Assembly (NCBI RefSeq): GCF_963677155.1
Contig: NZ_OY781884.1
Coordinates: 558,001-622,000 of the forward strand
Length of the DNA stretch: 64,000 bases
Reading direction: 5' to 3'
Source of the DNA: an uncultured Draconibacterium sp.
GTDB taxonomy: Bacteria; Bacteroidota; Bacteroidia; Bacteroidales; Prolixibacteraceae
The notes under the pieces are model-generated. The model searched no databases. It saw only the letters and a program-made list of their open reading frames with translations, and was not told the DNA's origin. Below, one piece after another: positions 11,052-37,693 of this stretch. A program made the position numbers and the translations under genes. Position 1 is the first letter of the stretch; the number at the start of each line of letters is the position of its first letter.

Positions 11052-13463
11052 ATGTATTTAGAGAAAGAAAAACCGGCAACAAAGAATCAGATATCTGCAA
11101 AAGAAGCGCTTCAGGATTATTACATTGCGAGCCTAAGCCGCCAGCTAAGTATAATGGGGCGTCGTGAGGTACATAACGGCCGCGCACATTTTGGTATTTT
11201 TGGTGATGGAAAAGAAATTGCCCAGATTGCTTATGCTAAGAATTTCAAAAAAGGCGACTGGCGTTCGGGGTACTACCGCGATCAGACCTTTATGCTGGCA
11301 CTTGGGTTACTGGAACCGGAAGAATTTTTTGCCATGATTTACGGCGATACCGACGATGAGATTAATCCATCCACCGGAGGACGAAATTTCAATAATCATT
11401 TTAGCACAAGAAATATTAGCAATTCGGGAGAAATAAAGAATCTTGCTGATCAGTACAATTCAGCATCCGACATTTCATCAACCGGAGGACAAATGCCGCG
11501 TTTACTGGGGCTGGCCCAAGCTAGTAAAATGGTTCGTGAACACCGTGAATTAAAAAAGCATCTGAATAACAATGTTACCGGAAACGAAGTAGCATTTGGC
11601 AGTATTGGAGATGCCAGCACAAGCGAAGGAATTTTCTTTGAAACGATAAATGCAGCCGGTGTTTTGCAGGTACCAATGGCCGTTGCAATTTACGATGATG
11701 GTTTTGGAATTAGTGTACCCATTGAGTTGCAAACCACCAAATCAAGCATTTCGGAAGCACTTAAAGGCTTTGCCAAAGAAAAAGGCAGCAACGGCGTTGA
11801 CATTTATAAATGTAAGGGATGGAGTTACCCGGAATTGGTAAAAACATTTAAAGAAGGAATTGATAATTGCCGGGAAAATCAAACCCCGGTGGTTTTTCAC
11901 ATCAATGAAGTTACCCAGCCGCAGGGGCACTCCACTTCGGGCTCTCACGAGCGATATAAAACAAAAGAACGTTTGGCTTGGGAGAAAGAATACGATGGCG
12001 TTAATCAGATGCGCAAGTGGTTGCTCGAATCAGGAATCGCCGACGAAGAGATGTTAAGCGAAATTGAAAAATCGGCACAAAAACGAGCAAAAGAAGCCCG
12101 CAAAAAAGCCTGGACAAATTATACTGAAGGCTACCAAAAAGAACGAACAGAATTGATTTCGATTCTGAAAGATATTGACGAACGAAGCGACTTACAAAGT
12201 TTACGTCGTTTTGAAAAAGTAACCGATAAGATTTTCCCAACGCGGCGATCACATGTTAGTTTTGCCAAAAGGTTAAAACTTGAGCTTCATACCATGCCTG
12301 AGCTTGAAAAAGAGCGTGAAACGCTTAAAGACTGGATTAGTCGTTTTGAAGAACGTAGCGCCGGATTTTACAACCGAGAATTATACAGAACCGGACTAGA
12401 CGCTACGCTGAATGTAAAAGAAGTGGCAGTAGAATACGACGAAAATTCTACCGACGTAAATGGATCCGTGGTTGTAAATAAAAACTTTGATGCCCTGTTT
12501 AGCAAATATCCCAACCTTGTAACTTTTGGTGAAGACACAGGAAAACTGGGCGATGTAAATCAGGGAATGAAAGGCATGCAGGAGAAATACGGTAAAGTTC
12601 GTGTTGACGATACCGGTATTCGCGAGGCAACCATTATTGGACAGGGAATTGGTTTAGCGATGCGTGGTTTTCGCCCCATTGCAGAAATTCAGTACCTCGA
12701 CTACCTGATTTATGCACAGTCGCAGTTAAGCGATGATTTGGCCACGTTGCAATACCGTACCAAAGGCCGACAGGCTGCTCCGCTAATTGTACGTACGCGT
12801 GGCCATCAGTTACAAGGAATCTGGCACGCTGGTTCGCCGATGCAAATGCTTTTGGGATCGCTACGTGGAATATACTTATGCGTACCACGTAACCTGACAC
12901 AAGCTGCAGGATTCTATAATACTTTATTCGAAGGTAACGATCCTGCACTGGTTATTGAACCGTTGAAAGGTTATAACGTAAAAGAAAAACTACCGGCTAA
13001 CCATGGCGAATACAAAGTTCCACTTGGCGTTCCTGAAATTATGCAGGAAGGAACCGATGTTACCATTGTAACTTATGCCTGGAACGTGCATCATGCAGTA
13101 AAAGCAGCAAAACTTCTGCAGGACTTTAAAGGTATTTCCATTGAGGTGATCGATGTGCAGACTTTAATGCCTTTTGATGTAAATCACATCATTTTGGAAT
13201 CCATCAAAAAAACTGGTAAAGTAATTTTTATGGACGAAGATGTGCCTGGCGGAGGCACTGCTTATATGATGCAAAAAGTTATTGAAGAGCAAAAAGCATT
13301 TGATTATTTAGACACGGCTCCTCGAACACTTTCGGCTCAGGAACACCGCCCCGCCTATGGTATCGACGGCGAATATTTCTCTAAACCAAACGTAGAATTG
13401 CTTTTCAAAAATGTTTACGAAATGATGCGGGAAGTAGAGCCTGATCGTTTTCCAGAGTTATAA
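11052..13463 (+). CDS. Fused alpha-keto-acid dehydrogenase E1 (alpha and beta subunits in one chain)
   Basis: Thiamine-diphosphate-dependent decarboxylase component of a 2-oxoacid dehydrogenase complex, probably the branched-chain (2-oxoisovalerate) type, acting in the cytoplasm and passing an acyl group to a lipoyl E2. The E1-alpha half is about 1-400, with the ThDP/Mg motif GDASTSEG at 186-193 and DDGFGIS near 215. The E1-beta half is about 455-800, with FGEDTGKLGD and a transketolase C-terminal domain. The 803 residues match the fused form known in Bacteroidota. E2 and E3 are not in the window. Its stop codon is 4 bp from the stop of the convergent regulator gene. The substrate (branched-chain versus pyruvate) is not settled by sequence alone. 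Confidence 0.9.
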   Translation: MYLEKEKPATKNQISAKEALQDYYIASLSRQLSIMGRREVHNGRAHFGIFGDGKEIAQIAYAKNFKKGDWRSGYYRDQTFMLALGLLEPEEFFAMIYGDTDDEINPSTGGRNFNNHFSTRNISNSGEIKNLADQYNSASDISSTGGQMPRLLGLAQASKMVREHRELKKHLNNNVTGNEVAFGSIGDASTSEGIFFETINAAGVLQVPMAVAIYDDGFGISVPIELQTTKSSISEALKGFAKEKGSNGVDIYKCKGWSYPELVKTFKEGIDNCRENQTPVVFHINEVTQPQGHSTSGSHERYKTKERLAWEKEYDGVNQMRKWLLESGIADEEMLSEIEKSAQKRAKEARKKAWTNYTEGYQKERTELISILKDIDERSDLQSLRRFEKVTDKIFPTRRSHVSFAKRLKLELHTMPELEKERETLKDWISRFEERSAGFYNRELYRTGLDATLNVKEVAVEYDENSTDVNGSVVVNKNFDALFSKYPNLVTFGEDTGKLGDVNQGMKGMQEKYGKVRVDDTGIREATIIGQGIGLAMRGFRPIAEIQYLDYLIYAQSQLSDDLATLQYRTKGRQAAPLIVRTRGHQLQGIWHAGSPMQMLLGSLRGIYLCVPRNLTQAAGFYNTLFEGNDPALVIEPLKGYNVKEKLPANHGEYKVPLGVPEIMQEGTDVTIVTYAWNVHHAVKAAKLLQDFKGISIEVIDVQTLMPFDVNHIILESIKKTGKVIFMDEDVPGGGTAYMMQKVIEEQKAFDYLDTAPRTLSAQEHRPAYGIDGEYFSKPNVELLFKNVYEMMREVEPDRFPEL

Positions 13464-13467: not shown

Positions 13468-16008
13468 TCAACTCACCAACTCTTTAAACGAACGACCAAA
13501 ATCTTCGTTATATAAGTTACTGTACAACTTGATATAATGGTTGTAAATTTCTTTGGCTAAACTATGTTTTCCCTGCTGATAAAGGATATTACATTTTAAT
13601 TCCAACGCAGCTTCGTTCATTTGGTCGAAAGTGAAAAGGACATCGGTAATTTCAAGTAGTTCTTTTTCACTTTCCCGGATATCCAGCAATTCGCACACTT
13701 CTTCAAGGCGGTTTACGATTCTTCCGGAAATATCATCTTTCCATCTGTCGAGCCACTCCGTTTCCGTATTTACAAGAAAATTACCACGCCTCAAAATACT
13801 CATCATCGTATTAAATTCCGTTATCCGGGAAATATCAAATCCATTTCTGCTATATTCCTTAACATATTCCAAATCGCAAAAAACATCTTCATTATGCGAC
13901 ATTCGCCAGTTGTTCCCATCATAAGATATAGTAATATCACCCACATCTTCCAAAATCGAGCGTAGTTTTTTAATGTTCACCCCACGGTTATTTTTGGCAT
14001 TGTGCTCCGACTTATCAGGCCATAAAATCTCCTGAATTTTTTTAGAAGAAATCCCCGTATTTCGATCAATTGTATTCAGAAAAATAAGCAAAAACAGTTC
14101 TTTAACTGTTGGCGAAAAGCGGTAAGTAATATCTTTTCCGTTTCTGTCGAACACCTGAAAACCGCCGAAAGTAAAGATACGTCCTTGCAAGGTTCCTTTA
14201 TCACTATAAGCTTCGTCGGTAAATAAGTTCAATGTTGGCTTTTGTAGCTTAGCCTTTGCTTTTCTCGTTTTACGATTTATTATAAGAACTGCTCCTGCTA
14301 ATAACAACACCAATGCACCAAGCCCCCAATAAGCCAGGGAAAATTCTCTGCTCTCCATTTCTCCAGCCGGGATCAATTCGGTTTCTGACGGAGGATAATT
14401 TAGGGAGTAAATATTAACTTTAAATTTTCCGTCTGTTGTTTTGTGTAAGGTAAGTGCCAATATTTTATTGTGCGTTTGCCAGTTATATAAATCGGCAAAA
14501 GATGTAATATCATAAAAGGTATAAGGAATTTTGCTGCCAATAAATTTATAGACAGGATGATCGAGATCGGCTTTTAGCAGCTGTAAGGCAGTTTCGTTGT
14601 TGCTGTGCGAAAAACAAAGGGTATAAAAACAGTTCTGCTTTTCATTAACAATCATAGTATTAACCGGGGTATAACTCTCATCAGCAATTTTATCAAGTGC
14701 CCAAACTTTTGAGATTGTATCGGCTCCAAAATCAATCTTGTACAGATCGTAATAAAACTCCTTTCCCAAAATTTGTTTTCCGGTTTTATTACCCACCCCG
14801 CCAAACAGGTAATAAACATTACTGTCTTTAGGGCTTTGCCCCAGCGCTGCCAGGTAACGAGGCTCAAAAAGCTCACCTTTCAATTTTAACTCTTGCCACG
14901 TTTTTGTTCTTTCATCTAATTTTCTGATAGTATTGAAATAAGTAAAAAAACCGTAACCTCCGATTGCCATAAAAGCGCCATCAGTTGGATCTAAAAGGCT
15001 ATTGTGGTGCCAATATCTGGGTAAAAATGCAAGTGTGTCGTAGTTGTTATTCCAGCTTCTGCTGGCCTCATCAAAAACGGGAGCTAGCTTTTTGTATTTT
15101 GAATAAGTTCGTAAGTGTTCGTTTTTATCAAAGAACACCTGTTGGGCTTCTTCGTAAAATGGATTTCCCGACTGATAAGTAATAGTTGTTACCTTTCGTT
15201 CGTTTAGGCTGAATTTTGTAATTCCCTGCCTGTGCTCTACAAAATAAAAGGTTTCGGAGTTTTTATTAAAAGCAATTTGTGGCAGCTCCGGGAATTCAAA
15301 AGTTCGAACCTGGTTCCAGGTATAATGTTGCTCAATCACCCATGCCGGATTAATAATTTCGGCAACTTTCCCTTCGACTGAATCTTTAACAAAAGTGCCA
15401 AAAGTATAGTCAAGTGGCCAAAAATATTTTAAGTTATTCTGGTCAAAAAAACGAATATTACGCACCGACATTGGTGGCACCTCATCAATCTCAAAACCGT
15501 AACGATCTACAATTCCAAAGGTCCATTCCAGTTCAGACGAAGCAGGTATGTCAATCTTATCCGTTACTGTTTTTCCATCAAAAGTCATCGCCACTTCGCC
15601 CGAAACAGCATCAACCGTTAAGCGGAATTTATGCCAACGGTTGACCAGCTCAATTTGCTCGCGGCTTAAAGCCATTTGTAAATTGGTTTCCTTTTTATCA
15701 AGAACAATAAAAAGATCGGGAAAACGTCCGTCGATGTTATAAATAAGATCGAACTGATGCCCACCGTTTTTCTCCTTCAATTGCAATACATAACCATAGC
15801 GCTCATCAAGATCACGAAATAAGATATCAAATTCAATGGAGAACCGATTCTGATAACGAATGCTGCCCTCTTCTGTAATATCAATCCCGGTGCGGCTTTC
15901 AAGCGACACTTCTTTTGATTTAAAGAAGACACCACGATGCTCGTTCGCATTACTTTTTAATACTACCAATAAAACAATAAAAGAAATAAGAAATATCCCC
16001 CGCATCAA
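13468..16008 (-). CDS. Membrane-spanning SARP-like transcription regulator with extracytoplasmic sensor
   Basis: Predicted one-component regulator of the divergent SusC/SusD/GH92 locus. Residues 1-21 are a signal sequence. A LamG/concanavalin-like domain spans about 25-225 and a Kelch-like repeat region about 235-540. One transmembrane helix lies at about 557-577. A basic linker then leads to an OmpR/SARP-type winged helix at about 608-705 (FSPTVKELFLLIFL; IQEILWPDKSEHNAKNNRGV) and a BTAD-type helical domain at about 710-846. The topology, sensor outside and DNA-binding end inside, resembles hybrid two-component regulators without a kinase. A TAnnTTTG box lies 20 bp upstream of the start. Kelch assignment is tentative; the winged helix plus BTAD assignment is firmer. 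Confidence 0.85.
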   Translation of the reverse strand: MMRGIFLISFIVLLVVLKSNANEHRGVFFKSKEVSLESRTGIDITEEGSIRYQNRFSIEFDILFRDLDERYGYVLQLKEKNGGHQFDLIYNIDGRFPDLFIVLDKKETNLQMALSREQIELVNRWHKFRLTVDAVSGEVAMTFDGKTVTDKIDIPASSELEWTFGIVDRYGFEIDEVPPMSVRNIRFFDQNNLKYFWPLDYTFGTFVKDSVEGKVAEIINPAWVIEQHYTWNQVRTFEFPELPQIAFNKNSETFYFVEHRQGITKFSLNERKVTTITYQSGNPFYEEAQQVFFDKNEHLRTYSKYKKLAPVFDEASRSWNNNYDTLAFLPRYWHHNSLLDPTDGAFMAIGGYGFFTYFNTIRKLDERTKTWQELKLKGELFEPRYLAALGQSPKDSNVYYLFGGVGNKTGKQILGKEFYYDLYKIDFGADTISKVWALDKIADESYTPVNTMIVNEKQNCFYTLCFSHSNNETALQLLKADLDHPVYKFIGSKIPYTFYDITSFADLYNWQTHNKILALTLHKTTDGKFKVNIYSLNYPPSETELIPAGEMESREFSLAYWGLGALVLLLAGAVLIINRKTRKAKAKLQKPTLNLFTDEAYSDKGTLQGRIFTFGGFQVFDRNGKDITYRFSPTVKELFLLIFLNTIDRNTGISSKKIQEILWPDKSEHNAKNNRGVNIKKLRSILEDVGDITISYDGNNWRMSHNEDVFCDLEYVKEYSRNGFDISRITEFNTMMSILRRGNFLVNTETEWLDRWKDDISGRIVNRLEEVCELLDIRESEKELLEITDVLFTFDQMNEAALELKCNILYQQGKHSLAKEIYNHYIKLYSNLYNEDFGRSFKELVS

Positions 16009-16027
16009 TAGTTAGTTAAGTAAGAAA

Positions 16028-16035
16028 CAAATTTA
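16028..16035 (-). promoter_or_regulatory. Candidate -7 box of the SARP-like regulator
   Basis: On the minus strand this reads TAAATTTG, an exact match to the Bacteroidota -7 consensus TAnnTTTG, 20 bp before the regulator start codon. A -33 element is only weakly present. Confidence 0.4.
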
Positions 16036-16094
16036 CAATTTTAGCTCATTCCGCGAAACTATCCATACAAACTAAAATTAATATAAAACAAATT

Positions 16095-16127
16095 GTTGTC
16101 TCAGCACACTAATATCTCGTTGTCTCA
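16095..16127. promoter_or_regulatory. Paired GTTGTCTCA repeats upstream of the regulator gene
   Basis: GTTGTCTCA occurs at 16095-16103 and 16119-16127, 24 bp apart, and an inverted TGAGAC follows near 16149. The spacing and position upstream of the regulator suggest a possible operator, separate from the heptamers nearer SusC. The protein that would bind it is unknown. Confidence 0.4.
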
Positions 16128-16241
16128 TTCTTCTCCTGCCAATATTTTGAGACCAATATTCCTTCCAATAAGTTGTTTTGTAAATAAAAGTTAATTAAAA
16201 ACTATTTTATTGTAATTTTTTTGCGAATTCCACAAACCACT

Positions 16242-16335
16242 ATTTATCGGGTTCTCACAAACCAATTAATCTAATATTAATCGGCATTAACAAGTATTCA
16301 GCCCTCATTAATCGGCAATTAATCACAAATAAATC
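16242..16335 (+). promoter_or_regulatory. Array of ATTAATC-like heptamers at 10-11 bp spacing upstream of susC
   Basis: ATTAATC occurs at 16265, 16276, 16307 and 16318. Related heptamers fall in the same register: ATTAACA at 16286, ATTCAGC at 16296 and ATAAATC at 16329. ATTAATCGG occurs twice and ATTTATCGG once more at 16242. The steps are 11, 10, 10, 11, 11 and 11 bp, so all units face the same side of the helix. The array ends 53 bp before the SusC ATG and 22 bp before a TATTTTG box at 16358. SARP proteins are known to bind heptameric direct repeats with 11-bp period, and a SARP-like gene is divergent here, so I read this as its operator. Confidence 0.7.
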
Positions 16336-16388
16336 ACCTCTATTTAAAATTGTTAAATATTTTGAAATTTAAACTTAACACAAATTTT

Positions 16389-19300
16389 ATGGAAAATTAT
16401 TTTTCAGCGATTAGTCAGCTAACCAAAAGGCTATCGATCTCAAAATTTGCTGTTGCTTTTATTTTCATTTTCTCGGGTTTTGCCTCAATGGCACAACAGG
16501 GAGAATTGAAAGGTAAAGTAACGGAAGAAAATGATGCACCATTACCAGGAGTGACTGTAATGGTAAAAGGTACTTCAAATGGTACCATAACTAATTTTGA
16601 TGGAGAATACGCACTTAAAGATGTAAAAGAAGGTGACGTATTGGTATTCAGCTTTATCGGGATGTTAACACAGGAAATTGCCTACACAGGTCAGGCAAAC
16701 CTAAATGTAAACATGGAGACCGATACTCAAAACCTTGACGAGGTTGTGGTAACAGCGTTAGGTATTAAACGTGAAAAGAAGGCAATTACTTACTCTGCCC
16801 AAAATGTATCGGCAGATGAATTGAGTGAAGCCAGATCATTAAACGTGGCCAACTCTCTTTCTGGTAAAGTTGCCGGTTTGAGTTTCTCGACTACTGGTGG
16901 AGGCGTTGGTAGCTCCTCCAGAATAACTTTACGTGGTAACCGTTCGCTTACAGGAAACAATCAACCATTAATCGTTATTGATGGAGTACCAATGGATAAC
17001 AACGTTGCTTCTACTCCATCTGCCGACATTGGTGGTATTACCAGCTCTGACGGTATTTCAAACATCAATCCTGATGACATTGAATCCATTTCGGTACTGA
17101 AAGGAGCTTCTGCTGCTGCATTGTACGGAACTCGGGCCAGTAATGGTGTTATTATCATTAGCACAAAAAAAGGATCAGTAAGCGAAAGAGCACAAATTTC
17201 GGTGTCATCGAATGTAATGTTTTCCAAAGCCTACGATCTACTGAATCAGCAAAATGTTTACGGACAAGGCTCAACAGGTGTTTACGATCCAACCAGTCGT
17301 TTAAGCTGGGGACCTAAAATGACGGGGCAAAGCGTTGCTGCATGGCAGCTTTCATTTAATCCTGAATATGGCGGACCTTCTACATATTCGATGACTCCAC
17401 AACCAGATAATTCAATGAATTTCTTTGAAACTGGTTTTAATATGGCAAACTCTTTTACTGCCTCAATCGGTAATGAAAAAACTCAGGGATATTTCTCTTA
17501 TACTAATACAAAAGCAAACGGGATTGTAAAAGGGAATGAACTTAACCGTCATAACTTGAATCTACGTTTAACCAGTCAACTTTCTAAGAAATTAAGCCTT
17601 GACACAAAAACAAACTTTATTTCGCAAAAAATCGACAACCCGTTAAATACTGGTGAAAGTTCGGTAGGTGAAGCTGTTTATACAATGATCCGCAGTATGC
17701 CTTTCGACCAATACAAAGAATATGAATATACTGATGCAGCCGGGCAACTACAATACAATTACCCGGCACCCGATAATATAGGTGGAGTTGGTGGCAACCC
17801 ATATTGGTATGCATTAAGAAAAGCCAGAATTGATGAAAGAAACAGATTTATTGGTTTTGCATCTTTAAAATATGATTTTACCGATAATTTAAGTTTAATG
17901 ATTAGATCTGGTATCGATCAGGCTACTAATAAAACCAACATATCCAATTCGGCTTCTTTATCTGTTATCGGAAACGATTACGGAAGTTATTCTGAAACAA
18001 TTGGAGAGACATTAGAACTTAACTCCGACTTTTTATTATCATATAACAAAGCATTTGGAGACATTCATTTAAATGCCAATGTTGGCGGTAACGCGTTGTA
18101 CCAAAAACGTTCGGGATTAAACAGTGGTGGTATTTTAAGTAGAAGAAACTTTTTCGCCATCAGCAACTTATCTCAAATTGGCTCCACTTCAGATTTTTAT
18201 AAAAAGAGAATCAACTCGCTTTATTCATTTGCTCAGATTGGTTATAAAGAATATTTGTTCCTGGATCTTACAGCAAGAAACGACTGGTCTTCTACATTAC
18301 CATCCGATAACCGATCTTATTTCTACCCATCAGTTGGTCTTACCGGTGTTTTTACCGATATGTTCAACATCAAATCTGATGTTCTTACATTCCTGAAAGC
18401 ACGCGCGTCTTATGCAAAAGTAGGTAACGATACAGATCCATATCGTTTAAGTGAAGAGCTTCTTTATTATGGTTTTAACGGTGGTGTTGTTCAGTCTTCT
18501 ACTATTAAAAGTAACAACCAGTTGAAACCAGAGATCTCAACATCACAAGAAATTGGTGTGGATGCACGCTTCTTCGACAATAAAATTGGCTTGGATTTCA
18601 CCTGGTTTAAAACCAATACTACAAACCAGATCTTCACAATTAACACACCTGAATCATCGGGCTATGCAAAAGAAGTTGTGAATGGTGGCGAAATTGAAAA
18701 CAAAGGTATTGAGTTAGTATTAAATGCTCTAATTCTAGAGAGAGGTGATTTCCGCTGGGATCTTACTGCCAATTATTCAACTTACCAAACCAAAGTACTC
18801 AATATTATGGACGACAGAGACGAATTGTCGATAGTAACCGGGTACGAACGATTGGCACAAACTATTGTGAAAAAAGGAGGCAATTATGGAGACTTGTACA
18901 TCAAAGGTTTTGCACGCACGGATGATGGTCAGGTAATAGTAAATGCAGAAACAGGCTTACCTGAATTTACTTCTGGATTTGACATTCTCGCCGGCAACTT
19001 CAATCCTGATTGGACAGGCGGTATTCAAAATAAACTTACATATAAAAATCTTTCTTTGAGTTTCCTTATTGATGTGAGAATGGGAGGTAAAGTTATTTCT
19101 TATACTCAAGCAAGAATGGCTGGAGCAGGAGTAAGCGATATAACTCTTGCAGGAAGAGAAAACGGATTTGTTGTCGACGGAGTTAACGTAACTCGTGATG
19201 GTGCAGGAAATATTACATCAACTTCAACAAATAATACTTCTGTACTTGCTGAAGATTACTGGACTCAGGTAGCAAGCAGAGACCCAAGGTCAGCCGAAGA

Positions 19301-19556
19301 CTTCGTTTTCGATGCCACAAATATTAGGTTAAGAGAACTTGTATTAGGCTACTCATTGCCCAAAAGTGCATTAAAAAATACTCCATTAGCAGGTGTTAAC
19401 TTATCATTTGTTGGTAGAAACCTCTTCTTCATAACAAATAAAGCAAAATATTTCGACCCTGAACAGGGAGTTGGAGTTGGAAACCTTCAGGGAATTGAGT
19501 CATTTAATATCCCATCAACCAGGGATTTTGGATTTAATGTGAAACTGGACTTTTAA
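16389..19556 (+). CDS. SusC-family TonB-linked outer membrane glycan transporter
   Basis: TonB-dependent outer membrane channel that, with its SusD partner, imports oligosaccharides. I chose the ATG at 16389 (1055 residues); the TTG 39 nt earlier only adds an unlikely leader. A signal peptide ending GFASMAQ is followed by a carboxypeptidase-regulatory-like domain (LPGVTVMVKGTSNG...), a SusC TonB-box segment (LDEVVVTALGIKRE), a plug domain (VIDGVPM, ASAAALYGTRASNG), and a 22-strand-type barrel ending with a terminal Phe (FGFNVKLDF). SusD starts 12 bp after its stop. Position between a SARP-like regulator and two GH92 genes suggests mannose-rich glycans as cargo (inference). Confidence 0.96.
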   Translation: MENYFSAISQLTKRLSISKFAVAFIFIFSGFASMAQQGELKGKVTEENDAPLPGVTVMVKGTSNGTITNFDGEYALKDVKEGDVLVFSFIGMLTQEIAYTGQANLNVNMETDTQNLDEVVVTALGIKREKKAITYSAQNVSADELSEARSLNVANSLSGKVAGLSFSTTGGGVGSSSRITLRGNRSLTGNNQPLIVIDGVPMDNNVASTPSADIGGITSSDGISNINPDDIESISVLKGASAAALYGTRASNGVIIISTKKGSVSERAQISVSSNVMFSKAYDLLNQQNVYGQGSTGVYDPTSRLSWGPKMTGQSVAAWQLSFNPEYGGPSTYSMTPQPDNSMNFFETGFNMANSFTASIGNEKTQGYFSYTNTKANGIVKGNELNRHNLNLRLTSQLSKKLSLDTKTNFISQKIDNPLNTGESSVGEAVYTMIRSMPFDQYKEYEYTDAAGQLQYNYPAPDNIGGVGGNPYWYALRKARIDERNRFIGFASLKYDFTDNLSLMIRSGIDQATNKTNISNSASLSVIGNDYGSYSETIGETLELNSDFLLSYNKAFGDIHLNANVGGNALYQKRSGLNSGGILSRRNFFAISNLSQIGSTSDFYKKRINSLYSFAQIGYKEYLFLDLTARNDWSSTLPSDNRSYFYPSVGLTGVFTDMFNIKSDVLTFLKARASYAKVGNDTDPYRLSEELLYYGFNGGVVQSSTIKSNNQLKPEISTSQEIGVDARFFDNKIGLDFTWFKTNTTNQIFTINTPESSGYAKEVVNGGEIENKGIELVLNALILERGDFRWDLTANYSTYQTKVLNIMDDRDELSIVTGYERLAQTIVKKGGNYGDLYIKGFARTDDGQVIVNAETGLPEFTSGFDILAGNFNPDWTGGIQNKLTYKNLSLSFLIDVRMGGKVISYTQARMAGAGVSDITLAGRENGFVVDGVNVTRDGAGNITSTSTNNTSVLAEDYWTQVASRDPRSAEDFVFDATNIRLRELVLGYSLPKSALKNTPLAGVNLSFVGRNLFFITNKAKYFDPEQGVGVGNLQGIESFNIPSTRDFGFNVKLDF

Positions 19557-19568: not shown

Positions 19569-21137
19569 ATGAAAAATAGAATATCAAAAATATTAATATT
19601 CACATTCCTGATCTACTTGATGGGATGTACCTCGGATTTTGACGAAATCAATACCAATCCGAACACGCTTACCTCTGATCAATTAGATGCCTCAATGGCT
19701 GGTCCTTCTTTTGCGAATGCTCTTTATAAAGGAATCGGTAACGCTTCATGGAGTATACCTGGAGATGACTATGGTACCTATGGCTTGGCTACAATGTTAC
19801 ACTCTATGTTATTTGTGCATTATATGTCAGCTGGTAGCCCAGGATGGCAAACTGAAAGAAACGGGATTAATGACGGCTGGAGAAGCCGCGGATGGTTAAG
19901 ATTTTACACACTGGCCGTTCCTTCATTACGAAATGCTTATACTGCAGCAGAAGGCGATGCTGAAGCTTTGGCAGTACTTGATATATGGAAGGTATATATG
20001 TTCCATCGCTTTACTGATTCTTGGGGACCTGTTCCTTATTCTCAGGCAGGTATAGGAGGCTCATCTGTTCCTTATGATTCACAGGAAGCTATGTACGCTG
20101 ACTTCTTTACTCTTTTAGACAATGCAAATGCAACTTTAGCAGCAGCATCCGGCACAGTTGGTATATTGAAAGATTATGATGCAATTTATCAGGGAGACAT
20201 TGAAAAATGGAGACGTTTTGGAAACTCGCTCAAGCTGAGGTTGGCTTTGAGAATTTCGGATGTTGATGCCTCTACAGCAAAAACAAAAGCAGAAGAAGCA
20301 GTTTCAGCCGGAGTTATCGAATCGAACGAAGGAAGTGCTTACTATCAGACTACATCAGATGCATACAATAATTTTGTTGACATCGCAAAATCTTGGGGTT
20401 TCTACATGACTGCGGATATGGAAAGTATCCTGAAAGGATATAATGATCCTCGTCTGTCAATTTGGTTTAGCCCGAACTCAAACGGACACTTTGTTGGCCA
20501 GCCAAATGGTGGAGCCACTACCAGAAACTGGAATACTGACACGTTGAGTATGACCAACCAGGAAACTACATTTGCTGACAATGTGAATAAAGACATTGAA
20601 GTAATGATGGCTGCTGAATCGTATTTTAACCGGGCAGAAGGTGCTCTAAACGGATGGTCAATGAGCGACGATGCTGAATCATTATACAAAACCGGTGTCC
20701 GGTTGTCTCTTAAACAATGGGGCGTTAGCGATGAGAATGCAATTGATACTTACATTGCAGGAACAAGTACAGCTGTTGAACCTACATTGGCTACCGAATA
20801 TGTTGCTGCAGGTCACAATGCAACACCTCCTGTTGATGTTCCTGTTTCATGGGCAACAAGCGAATCGGCTCAAAGAAAGCAAATTGCCGTTCAAAAATAC
20901 CTTGCTCTTTTCCCTGAATCATGGGAAGCCTGGTCTGACCTGAGAAGGAGTGATGCAGATATTCTTTATCCGCTATTATACACTGAAGATAGTGAAGTAG
21001 GAACCGGGGTAATGAAAAGACTAACTTACCTGCCTAATGAGTACAGCACCAACGGAAATGCTGTTGAAGCGGTAGTAAGTACACTTTCAGGAGGAGAAGA
21101 TAAAGGTAGCGTTAAAGTTTGGTGGGACGTTAACTAA
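19569..21137 (+). CDS. SusD-like surface glycan-binding lipoprotein (SusD-like_2 type)
   Basis: Surface lipoprotein that caps the SusC channel and binds glycan. The lipobox is LMGCTS with Cys20 as the lipidated residue. The 522 residues, the N-terminal FDEINTNPNTL motif and the tetratricopeptide-like helical pattern (EKWRRFGNSLKLRLALRI, AESYFNRAEGAL) are typical of the SusD-like_2 subgroup. It starts 12 bp after SusC and is followed by a strong terminator, so SusC/SusD form a transcript of their own with the GH92 genes beyond. Confidence 0.94.
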   Translation: MKNRISKILIFTFLIYLMGCTSDFDEINTNPNTLTSDQLDASMAGPSFANALYKGIGNASWSIPGDDYGTYGLATMLHSMLFVHYMSAGSPGWQTERNGINDGWRSRGWLRFYTLAVPSLRNAYTAAEGDAEALAVLDIWKVYMFHRFTDSWGPVPYSQAGIGGSSVPYDSQEAMYADFFTLLDNANATLAAASGTVGILKDYDAIYQGDIEKWRRFGNSLKLRLALRISDVDASTAKTKAEEAVSAGVIESNEGSAYYQTTSDAYNNFVDIAKSWGFYMTADMESILKGYNDPRLSIWFSPNSNGHFVGQPNGGATTRNWNTDTLSMTNQETTFADNVNKDIEVMMAAESYFNRAEGALNGWSMSDDAESLYKTGVRLSLKQWGVSDENAIDTYIAGTSTAVEPTLATEYVAAGHNATPPVDVPVSWATSESAQRKQIAVQKYLALFPESWEAWSDLRRSDADILYPLLYTEDSEVGTGVMKRLTYLPNEYSTNGNAVEAVVSTLSGGEDKGSVKVWWDVN

Positions 21138-21262: not shown

Positions 21263-23485
21263 ATGAACCGAATTCTTTTAATTGTAAACGTATTTATTGC
21301 ATTCTCATTATTCTCATGCTCACAGGCTCCGAATAACGAAGATTTTTCAGCTTACGTAGATCCGTATATTGGCAGCGATTACCACGGGCATGTTTTTGTG
21401 GGAGCCAACGTTCCTTTTGGGGCCGTTCAGTTGGGGCCAAACAATGCACAGGGAACCTGGGATTGGTGCTCGGGCTATCATTATTCCGATTCAGTTCTGA
21501 TTGGCTTTGCACACACCCATTTAAGCGGAACAGGCATTGGCGATCTTGGCGATTTGCTTTTTATGCCCGTTTCCGATGATTTTAACTACAACCAAAAAGC
21601 AAACGAGGCCTACCCATGGAGTGCACTATATACGCACGACGACGAACAACTTAGTCCGGGATATTATTCCATTAACATCAATAAGTACAATATTCGGGCT
21701 GAACTTACAACCACCGAGCGTGTGGGCTTTCATCGATATAACTTTAATGCTTCCGGTAACTCAAAATTAATTATCGACTTCACTTATGGTACCGGTTGGG
21801 ACGCACTCACTAAAGCCGACCTTCAACAGGAAGATGACCACAGCATTAGCGGATTTCGCTATTCAACAGGATGGGCCAAAGACCAAAAGATTTATTTCCA
21901 TACCGAGTTTTCGAAAGCAATAAAAGCGTTAAAAATATTACGTCAAAACGACGAAGGAATTAACACCGTTGAACTTGAATTTGAAGGAAACGGCGAGTTA
22001 CTCGTTAAAACAGCGATCTCACCCGTTAGTGTTAATGGCGCAAAAAACAACCTGAACACCGAATTAGCCCAATGGGATTTTGAAGCAACAAAAGCCAAAG
22101 CCCGTACAAAATGGAATACAGAACTGGGCAAAATTAAAATTGAAAATACTGATCCATCAAATAAAATCACATTTTATACCGCATTATACCACACCATGAT
22201 CGCACCATCGTTATTCGACGATGCCAATGGCGATTACCGCGGTGCCGATGGTAAAAACTACACCAATCCGGGTTACGATACTTACACCACATTTTCGCTG
22301 TGGGATACTTACCGCGCAGCGCATCCGCTATTTACGCTGGTTCAGCCCAATCGAGTAGACGACTTTGTAAATACACTGCTTGCTATTTACGAGCAACAGG
22401 GCAAACTTCCGGTGTGGCATCTACACGGAAACGAAACCAACACCATGGTGGGCAACCACGCCATTCCAGTAATTGCCGATGCCTTACTAAAAGGATTTAC
22501 CGGTTTTGATGCAGAAGAAGCATTTGAAGCCGCAAAATCAACTATGCTGATGGACGAACGCGGCCTTAATTTCATTAAAGAGCAAGGTTATATTCCGGCA
22601 GATTCCACTGTTGAGTCGGTTGCAATGGCATTGGAATATGCCATCGACGACTGGTGTGTGGCCGCCATGGCTAAAAAACTAGGAAAAACCGATGACTTTG
22701 AATTATTCGCAAAACGAGCAAAATATTACGAAAACTACTTCAATAAAGAAACCGCTTTTATACGTGGACGTATGGCCGATGGTAGCTGGCGTACACCTTT
22801 TAATCCAGTACATTCGGAGCATCGCGCCGACGATTTTTGCGAGGGAAATGCCTGGCAATATACCTGGTTGGTTCCTCATGATATTAATGGTTTAATTAAT
22901 CTTTTCGGTAGTGAAGCTGCTTTTTCCGAAAAATTAGATAAGCTTTTTACAGCCGAAGAAACATTAAACGAAGGAGCATCCAGCGATATTTCAGGCTTGA
23001 TTGGAATGTACGCCCACGGAAACGAACCGGGGCACCATATTCCTTACATGTATGCATTTGCAGGCCAGCAATGGAAAACAGCCGAACGTGTGAATTTTAT
23101 TCTAAATGAAATGTACACTGATCAACCCGATGGACTTTGCGGCAACGAAGACTGCGGACAAATGTCGGCATGGTACGTGTTCTCCTCAATGGGATTTTAT
23201 CCGGTTAATCCAGCCAACGGTGTTTATGTCTTTGGCAGTCCATTGTTTGAATCAGCGACCATTACATTACCAGGTAACAAAACATTTCAGATAGAAGCCA
23301 AGAATCTGAACAAGACAAATATCTATATCGATTCAGTTACGTTAAATGGCAAGCCTTACTCAAAAAGTTATATCACTCACGCTGATATTGTAAAAGGAGG
23401 AGTACTTGAATTTACCATGGCGGCAAAACCGAATAAAGAATTTGGACAAGCTGAAGGCAGTCGTCCGAAATCAGGCTACGAGTAG
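21263..23485 (+). CDS. GH92 exo-alpha-mannosidase with intact general acid
   Basis: Calcium-dependent inverting exo-alpha-mannosidase, typically alpha-1,2/1,3/1,4 on N-glycans or mannan. It is a lipoprotein with Cys19 in SLFSCSQ. The N-terminal beta-sandwich covers about 25-270 (DPYIGSDYHGHVFVGA) and the (alpha/alpha)6 catalytic domain the rest. The predicted general acid is E588 in HGNEPGHH, and the base/calcium Asp is in GNEDCGQMSAWY near 627-638. The 740 residues are family-typical. It is the first enzyme of the SusC/SusD locus. Subfamily linkage cannot be read off. Confidence 0.95.
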   Translation: MNRILLIVNVFIAFSLFSCSQAPNNEDFSAYVDPYIGSDYHGHVFVGANVPFGAVQLGPNNAQGTWDWCSGYHYSDSVLIGFAHTHLSGTGIGDLGDLLFMPVSDDFNYNQKANEAYPWSALYTHDDEQLSPGYYSININKYNIRAELTTTERVGFHRYNFNASGNSKLIIDFTYGTGWDALTKADLQQEDDHSISGFRYSTGWAKDQKIYFHTEFSKAIKALKILRQNDEGINTVELEFEGNGELLVKTAISPVSVNGAKNNLNTELAQWDFEATKAKARTKWNTELGKIKIENTDPSNKITFYTALYHTMIAPSLFDDANGDYRGADGKNYTNPGYDTYTTFSLWDTYRAAHPLFTLVQPNRVDDFVNTLLAIYEQQGKLPVWHLHGNETNTMVGNHAIPVIADALLKGFTGFDAEEAFEAAKSTMLMDERGLNFIKEQGYIPADSTVESVAMALEYAIDDWCVAAMAKKLGKTDDFELFAKRAKYYENYFNKETAFIRGRMADGSWRTPFNPVHSEHRADDFCEGNAWQYTWLVPHDINGLINLFGSEAAFSEKLDKLFTAEETLNEGASSDISGLIGMYAHGNEPGHHIPYMYAFAGQQWKTAERVNFILNEMYTDQPDGLCGNEDCGQMSAWYVFSSMGFYPVNPANGVYVFGSPLFESATITLPGNKTFQIEAKNLNKTNIYIDSVTLNGKPYSKSYITHADIVKGGVLEFTMAAKPNKEFGQAEGSRPKSGYE

Positions 23486-23557: not shown

Positions 23558-25855
23558 ATGAAGTATTATTTATTGTTTTGCCTTGGCGCAATTCTATTTA
23601 GCTGCACTTCAAAAGTCAGCACTCAATCAACAACTACGCCCACAAAACTGGTGGAACTGGTAAATCCTTTAATGGGTACCGATTCCGAATTCAAACTATC
23701 GAACGGGAACACCTACCCTGCCATTGCACGTCCGTGGGGAATGAATTTCTGGACACCGCAAACCGGCCGCATGGGCGACGGATGGGGTTACACCTACGAT
23801 TCGTACAAAATTCAGGGATTCAAACAAACCCATCAGCCTAGTCCGTGGATTAACGATTATGCCGCATTTTCGCTGATGCCGGTTACCGGAGAGCTAAAAT
23901 TTAAAGGCGCAGAACGTGCCTCGTGGTTTTCGCACAAAGCAGAAGTGGCCCAGCCGCACTATTATAAAGTGTATCTGGCCGACTACGATGTAACAACAGA
24001 GTTCACGCCAACCGACCGCGCGGTGTCATTCCGTTTTACTTTCCCTGAGAACGATAATTCGTATATCCTCTTGGATGCATTTGATGGAGGATCGATGGTG
24101 AAAATCATTGCCGAAGAACGTAAAATCGTTGGCTACTGCCAGAATAACCACGGCGGTGTACCTGCCAATTTCAAGAATTATTTTGTAGCCATTTTCGATA
24201 AAGATTTTGAAGTGGTTAAAACCTGGAAAGACGAAAATCTGCAGGACAAATCAGAAGCCGAGAGTTTCCATGTAGGCGGTATTGTTGGTTTCAAAACCCA
24301 AAAAGGTGAAGAAGTAAATGTAAAACTGGCTTCATCGTTTATCAGTGCCGAACAAGCAGAACTGAACCTGAGCCGGGAAATTGGGAACAAATCATTTGAA
24401 ACAATTAAAGCAGAAGGTGAGCAGATCTGGGAAAAAGAACTGGGCCGAATTAAAGTGGAAGGCGGCAGCGAAGCCGAACAAAAAACATTTTACTCGTGTC
24501 TGTATCGCACGTTGCTTTTCCCGCGAAAATTTTATGAATTTGATGCCGACAACAATATTGTACATTACAGTCCGTACAACGGCGAAGTTTTGCCCGGGTA
24601 TATGTTTACCGACAATGGTTTCTGGGACACCTTCCGTGCGGTATTCCCATTCTTCACACTGATGTATCCGGACCTGAACAGTCAGATCATGGCAGGACTG
24701 GTAAATACTTACAAAGAAAGTGGATGGTTGCCGGAATGGGCAAGTCCGGGGCACCGTGGTTGTATGATTGGCTCAAACTCAGCATCGCTTATTGCCGATT
24801 CGTACCTGAAAGGAATACGAGGCTACGACATTGAGACGTTGTACGAAGCCATGATTAAAAACACCAAGGGCTACATGGAAGAGATTCATTCTGTTGGTCG
24901 TTATGGTGCCGATTATTACAACAAACTGGGCTATGTGCCCTACAACGTTGGCATTAACGAAAACACAGCCCGTACACTGGAATATGCCTATGCCGATTAC
25001 TGCATTTGGAAACTGGCTAAGGAGCTGGGAAAACCACAGGAAGAGATTGACCTGTTCAAACAACGTGCCCGCAATTTCCATAACGTTTTCGATGCTGAAA
25101 GCAAGTTGATGCGCGGTAAAAACGAAGATGGTACTTTCCAGTCGCCATTTAGCCCATACAAATGGGGCGATGCTTTTACCGAAGGAAACAGCTGGCATTA
25201 CACCTGGAGCGTTTTCCAGGATATTGAAGGCCTGAAACAACTGATGGGTGGCAACGATGAGTTTGTGGCTATGCTCGACTCGGTGTTTGTAGTTCCTCCA
25301 ATCTTCGACGATTCTTATTATGGGGGTACAATTCACGAAATTCGTGAAATGCAAATTGCCGGAATGGGAAATTATGCACACGGAAACCAGCCCATTCAGC
25401 ACATGATCTACCTGTACAATTATTCCGATCAACCATGGAAAACACAGGCACATGTTCGCGAAGTGCTGACCAAATTGTACTCGTATCAGGCTGATGGTTA
25501 TTGTGGCGACGAAGACAACGGCCAGACTTCGGCATGGTATGTTTTCAGCTCAATGGGATTCTACCCGGTTTGTCCGGGAACTGATGAGTATGTGTTGGGA
25601 TCGCCGCTGTTCAACAAAATCACGCTAACACTTGAAAATGGTAATAAGTTTGTGATCGATGCCTCCAATAACTCAAAAGAGAACGTTTATGTAAACGATG
25701 TAAAACTGAATGGCAAATCGTACAATAAAAACTTTCTGAAACATGCCACGATTCAAAATGGTGGTAAACTGGATTTTGATATGGCCAGCCAGCCCAACAA
25801 AAATCGGGGAACGGAACCAAGCAGCTTCCCCTACTCCATGACTTTTGAAGATTAA
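23558..25855 (+). CDS. GH92-family protein with Gln replacing the general-acid Glu
   Basis: A GH92 lipoprotein (Cys16 in LFSCTS) of 765 residues with the full two-domain architecture. The motif that carries the catalytic acid reads HGNQPIQH, so residue 611 is Gln (codon CAG at 25388-25390), where its neighbour has HGNEPGHH. The base/calcium motif GDEDNGQTSAWY (650-661) is intact, as is the SSMGFYPV segment. From memory of the family, Gln at this position marks GH92 enzymes that hydrolyse mannose-1-phospho-6-mannose, where a phosphate leaving group needs no protonation. Mannosyl-phosphodiester uncapping is thus a real possibility, but reduced or altered mannosidase activity is the alternative. 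It is followed by a hairpin terminator. Confidence 0.92.
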   Translation: MKYYLLFCLGAILFSCTSKVSTQSTTTPTKLVELVNPLMGTDSEFKLSNGNTYPAIARPWGMNFWTPQTGRMGDGWGYTYDSYKIQGFKQTHQPSPWINDYAAFSLMPVTGELKFKGAERASWFSHKAEVAQPHYYKVYLADYDVTTEFTPTDRAVSFRFTFPENDNSYILLDAFDGGSMVKIIAEERKIVGYCQNNHGGVPANFKNYFVAIFDKDFEVVKTWKDENLQDKSEAESFHVGGIVGFKTQKGEEVNVKLASSFISAEQAELNLSREIGNKSFETIKAEGEQIWEKELGRIKVEGGSEAEQKTFYSCLYRTLLFPRKFYEFDADNNIVHYSPYNGEVLPGYMFTDNGFWDTFRAVFPFFTLMYPDLNSQIMAGLVNTYKESGWLPEWASPGHRGCMIGSNSASLIADSYLKGIRGYDIETLYEAMIKNTKGYMEEIHSVGRYGADYYNKLGYVPYNVGINENTARTLEYAYADYCIWKLAKELGKPQEEIDLFKQRARNFHNVFDAESKLMRGKNEDGTFQSPFSPYKWGDAFTEGNSWHYTWSVFQDIEGLKQLMGGNDEFVAMLDSVFVVPPIFDDSYYGGTIHEIREMQIAGMGNYAHGNQPIQHMIYLYNYSDQPWKTQAHVREVLTKLYSYQADGYCGDEDNGQTSAWYVFSSMGFYPVCPGTDEYVLGSPLFNKITLTLENGNKFVIDASNNSKENVYVNDVKLNGKSYNKNFLKHATIQNGGKLDFDMASQPNKNRGTEPSSFPYSMTFED

Positions 25856-35191: not shown

Positions 35192-35887
35192 TTACGAATG
35201 TAGTTTGGCTATAAAAGCCTCTTTAAAACTCAAACTAACCGGCAATTTTACATCGCCGAGTTTTACGCTGTTCCCCTCCAAATAAACCACTTTGGAAAGC
35301 GAAACCACATACGATTTATGGATGCGGGCAAATCGGGTTTCCGGTAGCAGTGCAATAAAATCCTTAAATCGTCCGTGCACCATCAATAATTGAGTTTCGG
35401 TAATAAAACGCACATAATCACCCTGTGCTTCCAGGTAGATTATTTCATCAAAACTTAGCCGGTAATCCTTTTTATCAGCACGTACCATTAAATGTTGCCC
35501 GGTGCTCTCTGTGCGTGAGGAAAAACGTTCGAGTGCCCGGTTAACTGCCGTTCGAAACCGATCAAACGAAACCGGTTTGAGCAAATAGTCCACCGCATCA
35601 ACTTCAAAACCTTCCAATGCAAATTCAGGATAAGCGGTAACCAAAATAAACAGCGGCGGTTCTTTTAAACTTTTCACAAAACCAATTCCACTTAATTTGG
35701 GCATGTTTATATCTAAAAACAGCAAGTCGATATCTTTCTGTTTTAACAACTGACCAGCTTCCAAAGCATCGTTACAAACTCCAACTAGCTCCAGCTCGGG
35801 ACAGGCCTTTACAAAATCGCGGATTACATCCTGCGACAATGGCTCATCATCGACAATAATACAATTTAATGTTTTTGTTTTAGCCAT
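35192..35887 (-). CDS. LytTR-family response regulator
   Basis: Transcription factor of a LytS/LytR-type two-component system. The receiver domain (about 8-125) has phosphoacceptor D59 in LLFLDINMP and Lys in LLKPVSF. The LytTR DNA-binding domain covers about 135-230 (YLEAQGDYVRF, RIHKSYVVSL). It starts 6 nt after the histidine kinase gene, as its cognate partner. A direct repeat at 37620-37650 upstream of the operon fits a LytTR binding site, so autoregulation is likely. Confidence 0.93.
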   Translation of the reverse strand: MAKTKTLNCIIVDDEPLSQDVIRDFVKACPELELVGVCNDALEAGQLLKQKDIDLLFLDINMPKLSGIGFVKSLKEPPLFILVTAYPEFALEGFEVDAVDYLLKPVSFDRFRTAVNRALERFSSRTESTGQHLMVRADKKDYRLSFDEIIYLEAQGDYVRFITETQLLMVHGRFKDFIALLPETRFARIHKSYVVSLSKVVYLEGNSVKLGDVKLPVSLSFKEAFIAKLHS

Positions 35888-35893
35888 GTTTTG

Positions 35894-36925
35894 CTAACTC
35901 AAATGCACCTGTAAAAGTACTTTAAATGTTTCTTTGTTATCCGAAATCTTTAGCGTATGTTGGTTGGGATAGATCATTTCCAGGCGTTTTCTCACGTTTT
36001 CAATTCCAATACCGTGGTATTTGTCCGAGAGCGGGTCGTTGGCCTGCCCTTTGCTATTTTCAACCTCGAAATGTAAAACCTTTTCCGCAACTTCAACTTT
36101 AATGTTTACAAAGGCGTCATTCGCACCACCTTTCATTCCGTGTTTAAAGCTGTTCTCAACAAAAGGAAGAAATAATAAAGGTGCTATCTTTTTCCCCTTT
36201 ATCGCGCCAATGGTATTGAATTCAATTTTGTTTTTCCCCGACCGAAGATTCTGCATATCAATATAATTCTGTAACATCTCCACTTCTTTTTCCAAGGCGA
36301 TAAAATCGGCATCCGACTCATAAAGAATGTGGCGCATTAAATCGCTGAGCTGTACGATCTTTTCCGACACTTCTTTCGATTCTTTTCGGGCCATACTGTA
36401 AATGCTGTTTAACGAATTAAAAAGAAAATGCGGGTTAATCTGCGATTTCAAAGCTTTTAACTCGGCCTGCGATTTTTCCTTTTCGAGCTCTTCGGCACGG
36501 AAATATCCTCGCGCCAGGTGCAATAAACTGGATATAAAAAGGTAAATGGCAAAAAACAACGAAATATCCCAAAAGCTGTAGTAAGCAATAAAATAATAGC
36601 CTTTAAAAATGTAGTCGATCAGGCTATCGAATAACAATAGATAAAAACCTGCCCCAAAAGCAATCGCGGCAATTACAGCAACAGCGTAACTGAAATAATT
36701 GCCACGCTCCCACAGAAAAGGAAAAAGCATTTTCAAATTCAGGTAAACCACAAAAACAATGGGTAGATGAAAAACTGCCGTGTAAATAAGGTCAATCTGT
36801 TTAACTTCAGCCGACACTTTTAACACATTCATCAGAATTAAAAACGATAAACACCAAAACAGGATATGTTGTAATACCCTGTTTTTAATAAGTTGGCCAA
36901 GTGCTATTTTAAAGTCGCTATTCAT
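35894..36925 (-). CDS. LytS/YehU-type sensor histidine kinase
   Basis: A 343-residue inner-membrane kinase. Four transmembrane helices cover about 18-135. The His_kinase domain has the phosphorylated H166 in INPHFLFNSLNS, and the ATPase has the N-box FVENSFKHG. No periplasmic sensor domain is present, so the signal is probably sensed in the membrane. It overlaps the upstream lipoprotein by 4 nt (ATGA) and precedes the response regulator by 6 nt, giving a three-gene operon. Confidence 0.93.
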   Translation of the reverse strand: MNSDFKIALGQLIKNRVLQHILFWCLSFLILMNVLKVSAEVKQIDLIYTAVFHLPIVFVVYLNLKMLFPFLWERGNYFSYAVAVIAAIAFGAGFYLLLFDSLIDYIFKGYYFIAYYSFWDISLFFAIYLFISSLLHLARGYFRAEELEKEKSQAELKALKSQINPHFLFNSLNSIYSMARKESKEVSEKIVQLSDLMRHILYESDADFIALEKEVEMLQNYIDMQNLRSGKNKIEFNTIGAIKGKKIAPLLFLPFVENSFKHGMKGGANDAFVNIKVEVAEKVLHFEVENSKGQANDPLSDKYHGIGIENVRKRLEMIYPNQHTLKISDNKETFKVLLQVHLS

Positions 36926-37557
36926 TTTTTGCGAAATAACGTCACGGACAGCCCGTCTTCAAACGCGTCTTCCGAATCCACATATTTACTTACAAATTTT
37001 TGTAATTCTTTTGGATTGGCGGTGAGCAAAATAAAATCACCGTTATCCTCGTGATGAATCCTGATCTTGTTTTCCTTAATCAGATCTTCAAGCCATTCCG
37101 GATCAAACCAACGGATTTCGAGTTTATCGTCGGAAACAGTTAGTTTGGCAAAAGTGTGCACCGGAACCAGATGCAGGTCTGCCAAAGTAATGTCTTCGTC
37201 TTCTCCGTATTCTTCAATATAAAAATCCAGGAAATATTCATCTGCCAACTTAATCACGTGCACTACAAATTTCGATTCTTTCACTACGCCATTGTCGTTT
37301 GACGTAAGCATTAGCACATATCGTTTTTTGTCGCGTATACTGTCTTTTTGATCTCCAAGAAACGGATGGGTGAAATTCCAAGAATCATCAGAACCACTAA
37401 AAACAACATCCTGATCATCGTCTTCAAACCATTCGCCCAATAGCAAATCGTTTTCAAACAAATCATTTTCGGTATACAAAGGGTAAAAGGAGTATACAAC
37501 ACACCCCGACAACAAAAGAGCAGTTGTAGCAACGAGCAGAATAATACGTGTTTTCAT
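36922..37557 (-). CDS. Acidic lipoprotein cotranscribed with a LytS/LytR pair
   Basis: A 211-residue lipoprotein, lipobox LLSGCVVYS (Cys19). The body is acidic with WFEDDDQD near 45 and no family I can name. The stop codon overlaps the kinase start, so it is translationally coupled and may be part of the sensing unit or a stress-induced envelope protein. The pairing is seen; the role is inferred. Confidence 0.8.
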   Translation of the reverse strand: MKTRIILLVATTALLLSGCVVYSFYPLYTENDLFENDLLLGEWFEDDDQDVVFSGSDDSWNFTHPFLGDQKDSIRDKKRYVLMLTSNDNGVVKESKFVVHVIKLADEYFLDFYIEEYGEDEDITLADLHLVPVHTFAKLTVSDDKLEIRWFDPEWLEDLIKENKIRIHHEDNGDFILLTANPKELQKFVSKYVDSEDAFEDGLSVTLFRKK

Positions 37558-37619
37558 TTTGATTGTTTTTTAATTTCTTCTCGAAAGTACAGGACTTTAA
37601 CCGCCCAAAAGATTTTTTT

Positions 37620-37650: not shown

Positions 37651-37693
37651 AAAAACCACCAATCAGAAGCAAAATGAAAACCGGCCAAAACGG

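Follow-up and report, generated by a model that had tools for sequence, protein, structure and literature searches.

The heptamer repeats that span positions 16265-16335 of the window (the whole stretch of DNA analysed here, 64,000 nucleotides in length, at 558001-622000 of its contig) are, judging from sequence comparison, very probably the operator of a membrane-anchored SARP that is encoded divergently from them. The fuller reading, in which occupation of this operator also activates the neighbouring susC gene, draws in addition on analogy with known SARPs and is considered likely.

The repeat array and the susC promoter

The first-pass annotation had placed seven ATTAATC-like units between susC and the regulator gene, together with an eighth, ATTTATCGG, at 16242. 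Re-reading of the sequence returns the seven heptamers with the same letters and spacings: ATTAATC at 16265 and 16276, ATTAACA at 16286, ATTCAGC at 16296, ATTAATC at 16307 and 16318, and ATAAATC at 16329. The chain score of 7-mers at 10- or 11-bp steps in the region 16009-16428 is 45.0, compared with a mean of 15.2 (standard deviation 3.0, maximum 29.3) in 300 dinucleotide-preserving shuffles. The strict pattern TTAATCN5TTAATCN{3,6}TTAA has a single match in the 5.27-Mb genome, which is the array, and the reversed control pattern has none. A single TTAATCN5TTAATC pair is unremarkable: with at most one mismatch there are four in the 64-kb window, three of them inside the array, versus 1.2 expected, and at least four are also reached by 5 of 100 shuffles.

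The evaluation of individual units used an alignment of the window with eight relatives (L032-L037, L041 and L042; n = 9) that were picked for carrying both triads; L038-L040, which carry the distal triad only, and L043, which has one triad in another spelling, were left out. The sequences were cut at the putative distal operator triad (16265-16292, forward strand; units at 16265, 16276 and 16286), the sole strict pattern match in the genome, so that the invariance of its heptamers in 21 of 21 columns is forced, and only the proximal counts are unforced. In the putative proximal operator triad (16307-16335, forward strand; units at 16307, 16318 and 16329), which starts 42 bp after the start of the distal one, 16 of the 21 columns are invariant; the six spacers have 3 invariant columns in 22, and the two spacers within the proximal triad 1 in 8. 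The susC ATG follows the first TTAATC at 123 bp in seven of the nine sequences, and at 125 and 127 bp in the remaining two. Tried as operator parts, neither the unit at 16296 (0 of 7 columns) nor ATTTATCGG at 16242 (0 of 9) has an invariant column. Six of the eight claimed units are therefore retained and these two are dropped; the array is real, and consists of six units in two triads with a span of 16265-16335.

The generic chain score, expressed as a z value from 40 shuffles for each region, is 12.6 for the window, 7.1-9.6 for L032-L037, 5.4 for L042 and 4.7 for L041. The triad-bearing regions of L038, L039 and L043 are not outstanding by this measure (0.9, 0.7 and 0.5), nor are most distant regions, and L096 reaches 6.5 with a different repeat and a different sensor type. 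The Maribellus relatives L038-L040 keep the distal triad, and no proximal triad is seen in them.

SARP target promoters have been described, in the accessible portion of the source, as having direct repeats 11 or 22 bp apart, with the 3' repeat 8 bp from the -10 element (PMC10936776). Of 16 triads in the relatives of the window regulator, 12 have a TAnnTTTG-like -7 box that starts 9-10 bp past the third repeat, where the box was defined after the fact and one of the twelve (L183) is at a distal triad and may be due to chance; a TTTG-like word is present at offset 13 or 14 of 10 triads out of 20, with a background of 0.023 per position. The apparent position of the -7 box in the relatives is often close to SARP geometry. 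The window itself has a weak box at the SARP-like 9-bp spacing and a better match about one helical turn further. The first candidate, TAAAATTG (16345-16352, forward strand), begins 9 bp after the proximal triad at the same offset as in the relatives, matches TAnnTTTG weakly, and is invariant in 4 of 8 columns. The alternative, ATATTTTG (16357-16364, forward strand), lies 21 bp after the triad, has the better TTTG word, and sits in a conserved stretch (16353-16389) in which 28 of 37 columns are invariant in the nine sequences. A scan for sigma-70-type promoters, with 11 found versus 9.7 expected, is uninformative, and an Rfam scan of 15900-16500 gave no RNA element at the gathering score.

The regulator and its locus

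The regulator gene, identified from its open reading frame and translation, occupies 13468-16005 on the reverse strand and has its ATG at 16003-16005; residue numbers are counted here from the upstream TTG at 16008, the start in the ORF list, which gives 846 residues. The architecture in the AlphaFold model (60 family sequences, mean pLDDT 86.5) is the one that the first-pass annotation had claimed. A signal helix at the N-terminal end is followed by a LamG-like sandwich (residues ~26-220, 15349-15933) and a Kelch-type beta-propeller (residues ~224-540, 14389-15339), both predicted to lie outside, and then by a transmembrane helix (residues 558-581, 14266-14337), a predicted winged-helix DNA-binding domain (residues ~609-711, 13876-14184) and BTAD-like TPR helices (residues 712-846, 13471-13875), all encoded on the reverse strand. 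The sandwich has pLDDT values mostly above 80, and its LamG label reflects the order of the fold and the earlier annotation, Pfam having no LamG match for the window regulator. For the propeller, Kelch proteins rank first in the fold search and in the PDB profile search, and the Pfam Kelch matches are below the cut-off. The hydrophobic segment of the transmembrane helix is aligned in 60 of 60 relatives. Since 58 of the 60 have no other such segment past residue 60, and since the flank on its C-terminal side carries more positive charge than the other in 51 of the 60, the sensor is predicted to be outside and the DNA-binding end in the cytoplasm. Within the winged helix, the modelled helix 668-689 (KNNRGVNIKKLR; 13942-14007, reverse strand) is by its position the likely recognition helix, and its KN.R.V.I motif is conserved in the family.

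The SARP-like character of the C-terminal end, also claimed previously, is borne out by the model. When the C-terminal 249 residues are modelled alone (pLDDT 92.7), a Foldseek search of the PDB gives six matches at E <= 0.001, all of them to AfsR (8hvr, 8k60) or EmbR (2fez, 2ff4), with TM-scores on the query of 0.49-0.63; both the winged helix and the BTAD-like helices lie in this fold match. The search with the whole model returns mostly Kelch or propeller proteins, and no SARP, among the matches listed (best 50). The sequence relation of the C-terminal end to the BTAD and Trans_reg_C families is at the edge of noise: at a maximum E of 1 neither Pfam family matches the window regulator, weak matches are found in 12 of 39 relatives for BTAD (best E 0.0024) and 5 of 39 for Trans_reg_C (best E 0.012), and a PDB sequence search with the C-terminal profile gives nothing significant (best E 0.034). 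Pfam and NCBIfam scans assign the window regulator to no DNA-binding family.

The genes around the array are, in order, a GH2 beta-galactosidase-type gene, an E1/transketolase-type gene, the reverse-strand regulator, the intergenic region, susC, susD and two GH92 genes, which agrees with the SusC/SusD mannan locus of the first-pass annotation. On the forward strand, susC (16389-19556; TIGR04056, E 1.8e-207) is taken to start at the ATG at 16389, whose context is conserved in nine sequences, rather than at the upstream TTG of the ORF list at 16350; it is followed by susD (19569-21137; PF12741) and by the two genes of the GH92 alpha-mannosidase family (21263-23485 and 23558-25855; both PF07971). 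GH92 and GH76 are families that act on alpha-mannosides. The 803-aa E1/transketolase-type fusion gene (11052-13463) ends 5 bp from the end of the regulator, and an 803-aa gene is likewise convergent to the regulator in L179-L184. Further along the window, 35192-41264 holds a second SusD-like gene, near which a histidine kinase and a LytTR response regulator are encoded.

In the window and the twelve closest of the relatives retrieved, L032-L043, whose regulators have 38-84% identity, the regulator is divergent from SusC-SusD in 13 of 13 cases, as had been anticipated for homologues. Across 80 loci found through the regulator, a SusC gene is present in 52; the gene immediately upstream runs divergently in 58 (in 22 of these it is SusC itself), codirectionally in 15 and is off the contig in 7, and SusC lies within the adjacent run of divergent genes in 42. 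Relatives of GH92, GH76 or GH130 occur in 51 of the 80 loci; for the sets L032-L086 and L087-L111, the latter with a sensor of another type, the corresponding figures are 26 of 55 and 0 of 25. These counts are minima because the loci differ in length, and Pfam names were checked for ten proteins. GH130 was found in one of the 80.

The full-length regulator family is, by sequence matches, widespread but patchy in the phylum. Relatives at E <= 1e-30 are found in 11 of 395 genomes drawn evenly from the phylum (the genome of the window included), and relatives at E <= 0.001 in 91 genomes out of the 140 examined from the taxonomic family of the window, many of which match at the C-terminal end only and have other sensors. 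The 80-locus set and the 140-genome set are kept apart and are not summed, because several loci come from the same genomes. Among named genomes, the nearest regulators, with 84 and 71% identity, are from Draconibacterium metagenome-assembled genomes, so that the host probably belongs there too. In G441:C1, G323:C3 and G512:C9 a second C-terminal-end match lies close to the full-length gene, and in G271:C1:1152952-1155449 the C-terminal-end match is split over two frames.

Recurrence of the triad and competing readings

The recurrence of phased heptamers beside the regulator can be evaluated de novo by counting 5-mers that are repeated at a given lag in more than one region. In 60 non-redundant regions upstream of the regulator, the 5-mers obtained at lag 11 are TAACC (11), TTAAC (7) and TAATC (6), those at lag 12 are TAACC and TTAAC (6 each), and those at lag 23 are TAACC (6) and TTAAC (3), while no 5-mer exceeds 2 at the other 14 tabulated lags. 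The best triad has at most one mismatch in 16 of the 60 regions, versus 0 of 600 shuffles and 0 of 60 opposite strands. No triad with fewer than four mismatches is present in any of the 18 non-redundant upstream regions of the relatives with other sensors.

When the 80 loci are searched whole on both strands (1.33 Mb), TTAAYC triads with no more than one mismatch number 41, in 38 loci, and the reversed pattern has no match; the other 42 loci have no triad at this level. Every one of the 41 lies less than 1 kb from the regulator gene, without overlapping it, and is directed away from it; 38 are upstream of the gene and 3 are downstream. The 5.8% of the DNA that adjoins the regulator holds 36 of the 41, and the other 5 are 548-915 bp upstream. 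The steps 11,23 and 12,23 entered the pattern only once the de novo count had been made, and the loci of one genus are not independent; with only the steps that were fixed beforehand (11,21/22), 14 of 14 sites, in 12 loci, are near the regulator and point away from it. At two mismatches or fewer the 80 loci have 51 sites near the regulator and 13 elsewhere, and the control has 2 near and 6 elsewhere. The expected recurrence of phased heptamers is thus seen in homologous and in distant loci, and triads of this kind are shown, at the level of sequence, to recur beside the regulator family in several orders of the phylum.

The spelling of the triad also follows that of the recognition helix to some extent. 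The helix RGVNIKKLR pairs with TTAATC at steps of 11/10-11 in the window clade and in Maribellus, and occurs in Labilibaculum and Marinifilum with weaker first and third units; RGVTINHLR pairs with TTAACCC at 11/12 beside GH76 in Sphingobacterium, Dysgonomonas, Alistipes and Maribellus. The link is incomplete, because 11 RGVTINHLR loci, mostly of Cytophagales type and mostly beside GH92, have no near site even at three mismatches. In L248 (B. cellulosilyticus), L250 (B. stercorirosoris) and L224 (a Bacteroides metagenome-assembled genome), a triad of the TTAACC/TTAACC/TGTAACC type is situated 133-310 bp past the end of the regulator and ahead of a gene for 899 residues (assigned to GH116 by Pfam in L248) and then SusC, which would be the same operator in another layout and perhaps for another glycan.

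An unlikely alternative, and the one that survives best, assigns the array to a response regulator of the OmpR/PhoB type whose gene lies elsewhere. The winged helices of such regulators likewise recognise repeats in tandem, of about 11 bp each, which take the place of a -35 box. Triads do occur away from the full-length regulator. A blind pattern search of the 140 family genomes gave 30 matches versus 6 for the reversed pattern; a regulator with the same C-terminal family is present in 5 of the 24 regions fetched, and in 7 of 26 when G080:C6 and G134:C2 are added by coordinates, versus 0 of 6 control regions, which leaves 19 of 26 with no family regulator within the stretch. Exact TTAACC triads are found in 4 of the 395 phylum genomes (reversed control, 2), and these four do not coincide with the 11 that hold the full-length family. 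In the corresponding loci, L259-L262, the exact triad lies at about position 1501, between a HisKA/HATPase gene (a histidine kinase by Pfam in both of the two loci tested, L261 and L262) and a divergent gene for an outer-membrane protein, and it may perhaps be the site of an OmpR-type response regulator. The array alone is therefore no proof of a SARP, because OmpR/PhoB-type regulators share its geometry and triads adjoin histidine-kinase genes; the link between array and regulator rests on adjacency, direction and conservation together with the regulator gene. These speak against a regulator encoded elsewhere: each of the 41 sites in the 80 family loci is next to the regulator, in a set that was partly chosen by the regulator and in which absence elsewhere covers about 8 kb, and the genome of the window has the strict pattern only at the array. 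In addition, no OmpR-type gene is found among the window proteins scanned, a set that does not take in every small ORF, and the only response regulator seen there is of the LytTR type (35192-35887).

Exact TTAAYC triads are also found on the 3' side of other-sensor relatives in five fetched loci: L143 (6859-6886), L145 (4100-4127), L146 (5041-5068), L148 (6245-6272) and L149 (6090-6117). Here the triad is about 100 bp past the 3' end of a relative in which LamG is next to the membrane, and in L143, L145, L148 and L149 it precedes a gene for a 508-aa fusion protein that joins a NapC/NirT cytochrome to an FGE-sulfatase domain, the contig of L146 ending first. The 508-aa fusion gene and the triad also occur in L144 (6430-6457) and L150 (6252-6279), where the other-sensor regulator is not adjacent.

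A second alternative, that the array is bound by the regulator but serves for repression of susC, or only for autoregulation, is very improbable. It would suit the location of the array between divergent genes, and the occlusion of a promoter would use a similar geometry. However, the repeats are directed at the outside gene in all 41 sites, with a constant spacing to a -7-like box on that side, and in L224, L248 and L250 the site comes after the regulator and ahead of the operon that is next in line. The SARPs that are known are, moreover, activators, according to the accessible portions of PMC10936776 and PMC10972967.

Relation to known systems and proposed mechanism

Operators of SARPs are described, in the accessible text of three papers, as heptamer direct repeats at 11 bp, arranged as triads or doublets, with the last repeat near the promoter box (PMC10936776, PMC5930380, PMC10972967), and the array, as a putative operator, has the repeat spacing of SARP operators (11 bp, with 10 and 22 bp also reported). 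According to the model, the window regulator has in common with the SARP family (AfsR, EmbR, ActII-ORF4, PimR) a fold made of an OmpR-type winged helix and BTAD. The differences lie in the setting. Known SARPs, as the accessible sources describe them, are soluble actinobacterial proteins, and the family is familiar for its antibiotic switches, whereas the domain in the window would form the part of a Bacteroidota membrane receptor, with a single pass, that lies in the cytoplasm; its heptamer is of the TTAAYC type, and its predicted target is a glycan-uptake operon. The comparison with ToxR/CadC-type regulators, in which an OmpR-type winged helix is tied by one transmembrane helix to a periplasmic sensor, shows an architecture that is reversed in the window regulator, with the sensor first and the DNA-binding end last, and with BTAD-like helices added.

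Membrane regulators of glycan uptake are already known. SusR, as presented in part of PMC3878776, is a membrane one-component regulator of the susC/susD genes with a periplasmic sensor and a cytoplasmic DNA-binding end, and its layout and its control of susC/susD are features that the window regulator is predicted to have in common with the SusR-like proteins of Bacteroides. The DNA-binding domain of SusR is said in the accessible text of the same paper to resemble no other known one, and SusR is set apart here by that description. The HTCS, including HTCS_Man, are glycan-sensing membrane regulators of PULs with alpha-mannan among their substrates (PMC3878776, accessible portion). That the repeats are a site of the HTCS or SusR type, or a non-functional AT-rich phasing near the promoter, is hardly credible: the HTCS and SusR-like motifs of Bacteroides are likewise direct repeats, but they consist, in the accessible text, of two sites about 21 bp (HTCS) or 67 or 77 bp (SusR-like) apart (PMC3878776) rather than of triads with steps of 10-12 bp, Pfam scans of the regulator find no histidine kinase, receiver or AraC domain, which the HTCS combine in one chain, and AT-rich phasing is opposed by heptamers that are conserved while their spacers drift and by dinucleotide-keeping shuffles that do not reproduce the array.

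It seems fairly likely that membrane-anchored SARPs represent a further class of glycan-sensing PUL regulators of Bacteroidota beside SusR, the HTCS and the ECF sigma/anti-sigma systems, largely for glycans of the alpha-mannan type, with a common operator code of three TTAAYC heptamers at steps of 10-12 bp that ends 9-10 bp before a TAnnTTTG-type box. The first-pass annotation had regarded such a class as one that is not established for these loci, and this stands in part. No description of a SARP/BTAD membrane regulator in Bacteroidota was found among the titles and abstracts listed from the open-access literature (subscription papers are mostly outside it), and neither the combination nor its spread nor the shared operator seems to be described there. 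The regulator is not a wholly new kind, because SARPs are known and SusR is already a membrane one-component sus regulator (PMC3878776, in part). A protein family of several Bacteroidota orders that is unnamed in Pfam and NCBIfam gains a testable job and a DNA target, and, if the reading is correct, operons could be assigned to the family by sequence and a glycan-sensing switch would become available for work in Bacteroidota. Polymerase recruitment of the SARP type would then also be an output of a transmembrane receptor, beyond the soluble switches of actinobacteria.

The activation of susC by the regulator may be pictured as follows. A mannose-rich glycan fragment in the periplasm would bind to the LamG/propeller sensor, and the ligand would bring the cytoplasmic SARP domains side by side, so that they could occupy successive heptamers, one protomer each. 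AfsR is described as binding side by side and as providing an additional docking surface for sigma region 4 (PMC10936776). By analogy with that complex, the promoter-proximal protomer would adjoin the -7 box and recruit RNA polymerase and sigma, and transcription of susC-susD-GH92 would rise. The regulator may also control its own promoter. The class of ligand is suggested by the neighbouring genes, and ligand-driven clustering, tandem binding and polymerase recruitment are suggested by the fold and the operator. The picture poses the question of how a membrane-held SARP domain could fill a row of three to six neighbouring heptamers. Occupancy would be increased by the distal triad, and the presence of two triads in the window is comparable to the two operators of PimR, which are described in part of PMC5930380 as a triplet with 4-bp spacers and a second operator that is a doublet.
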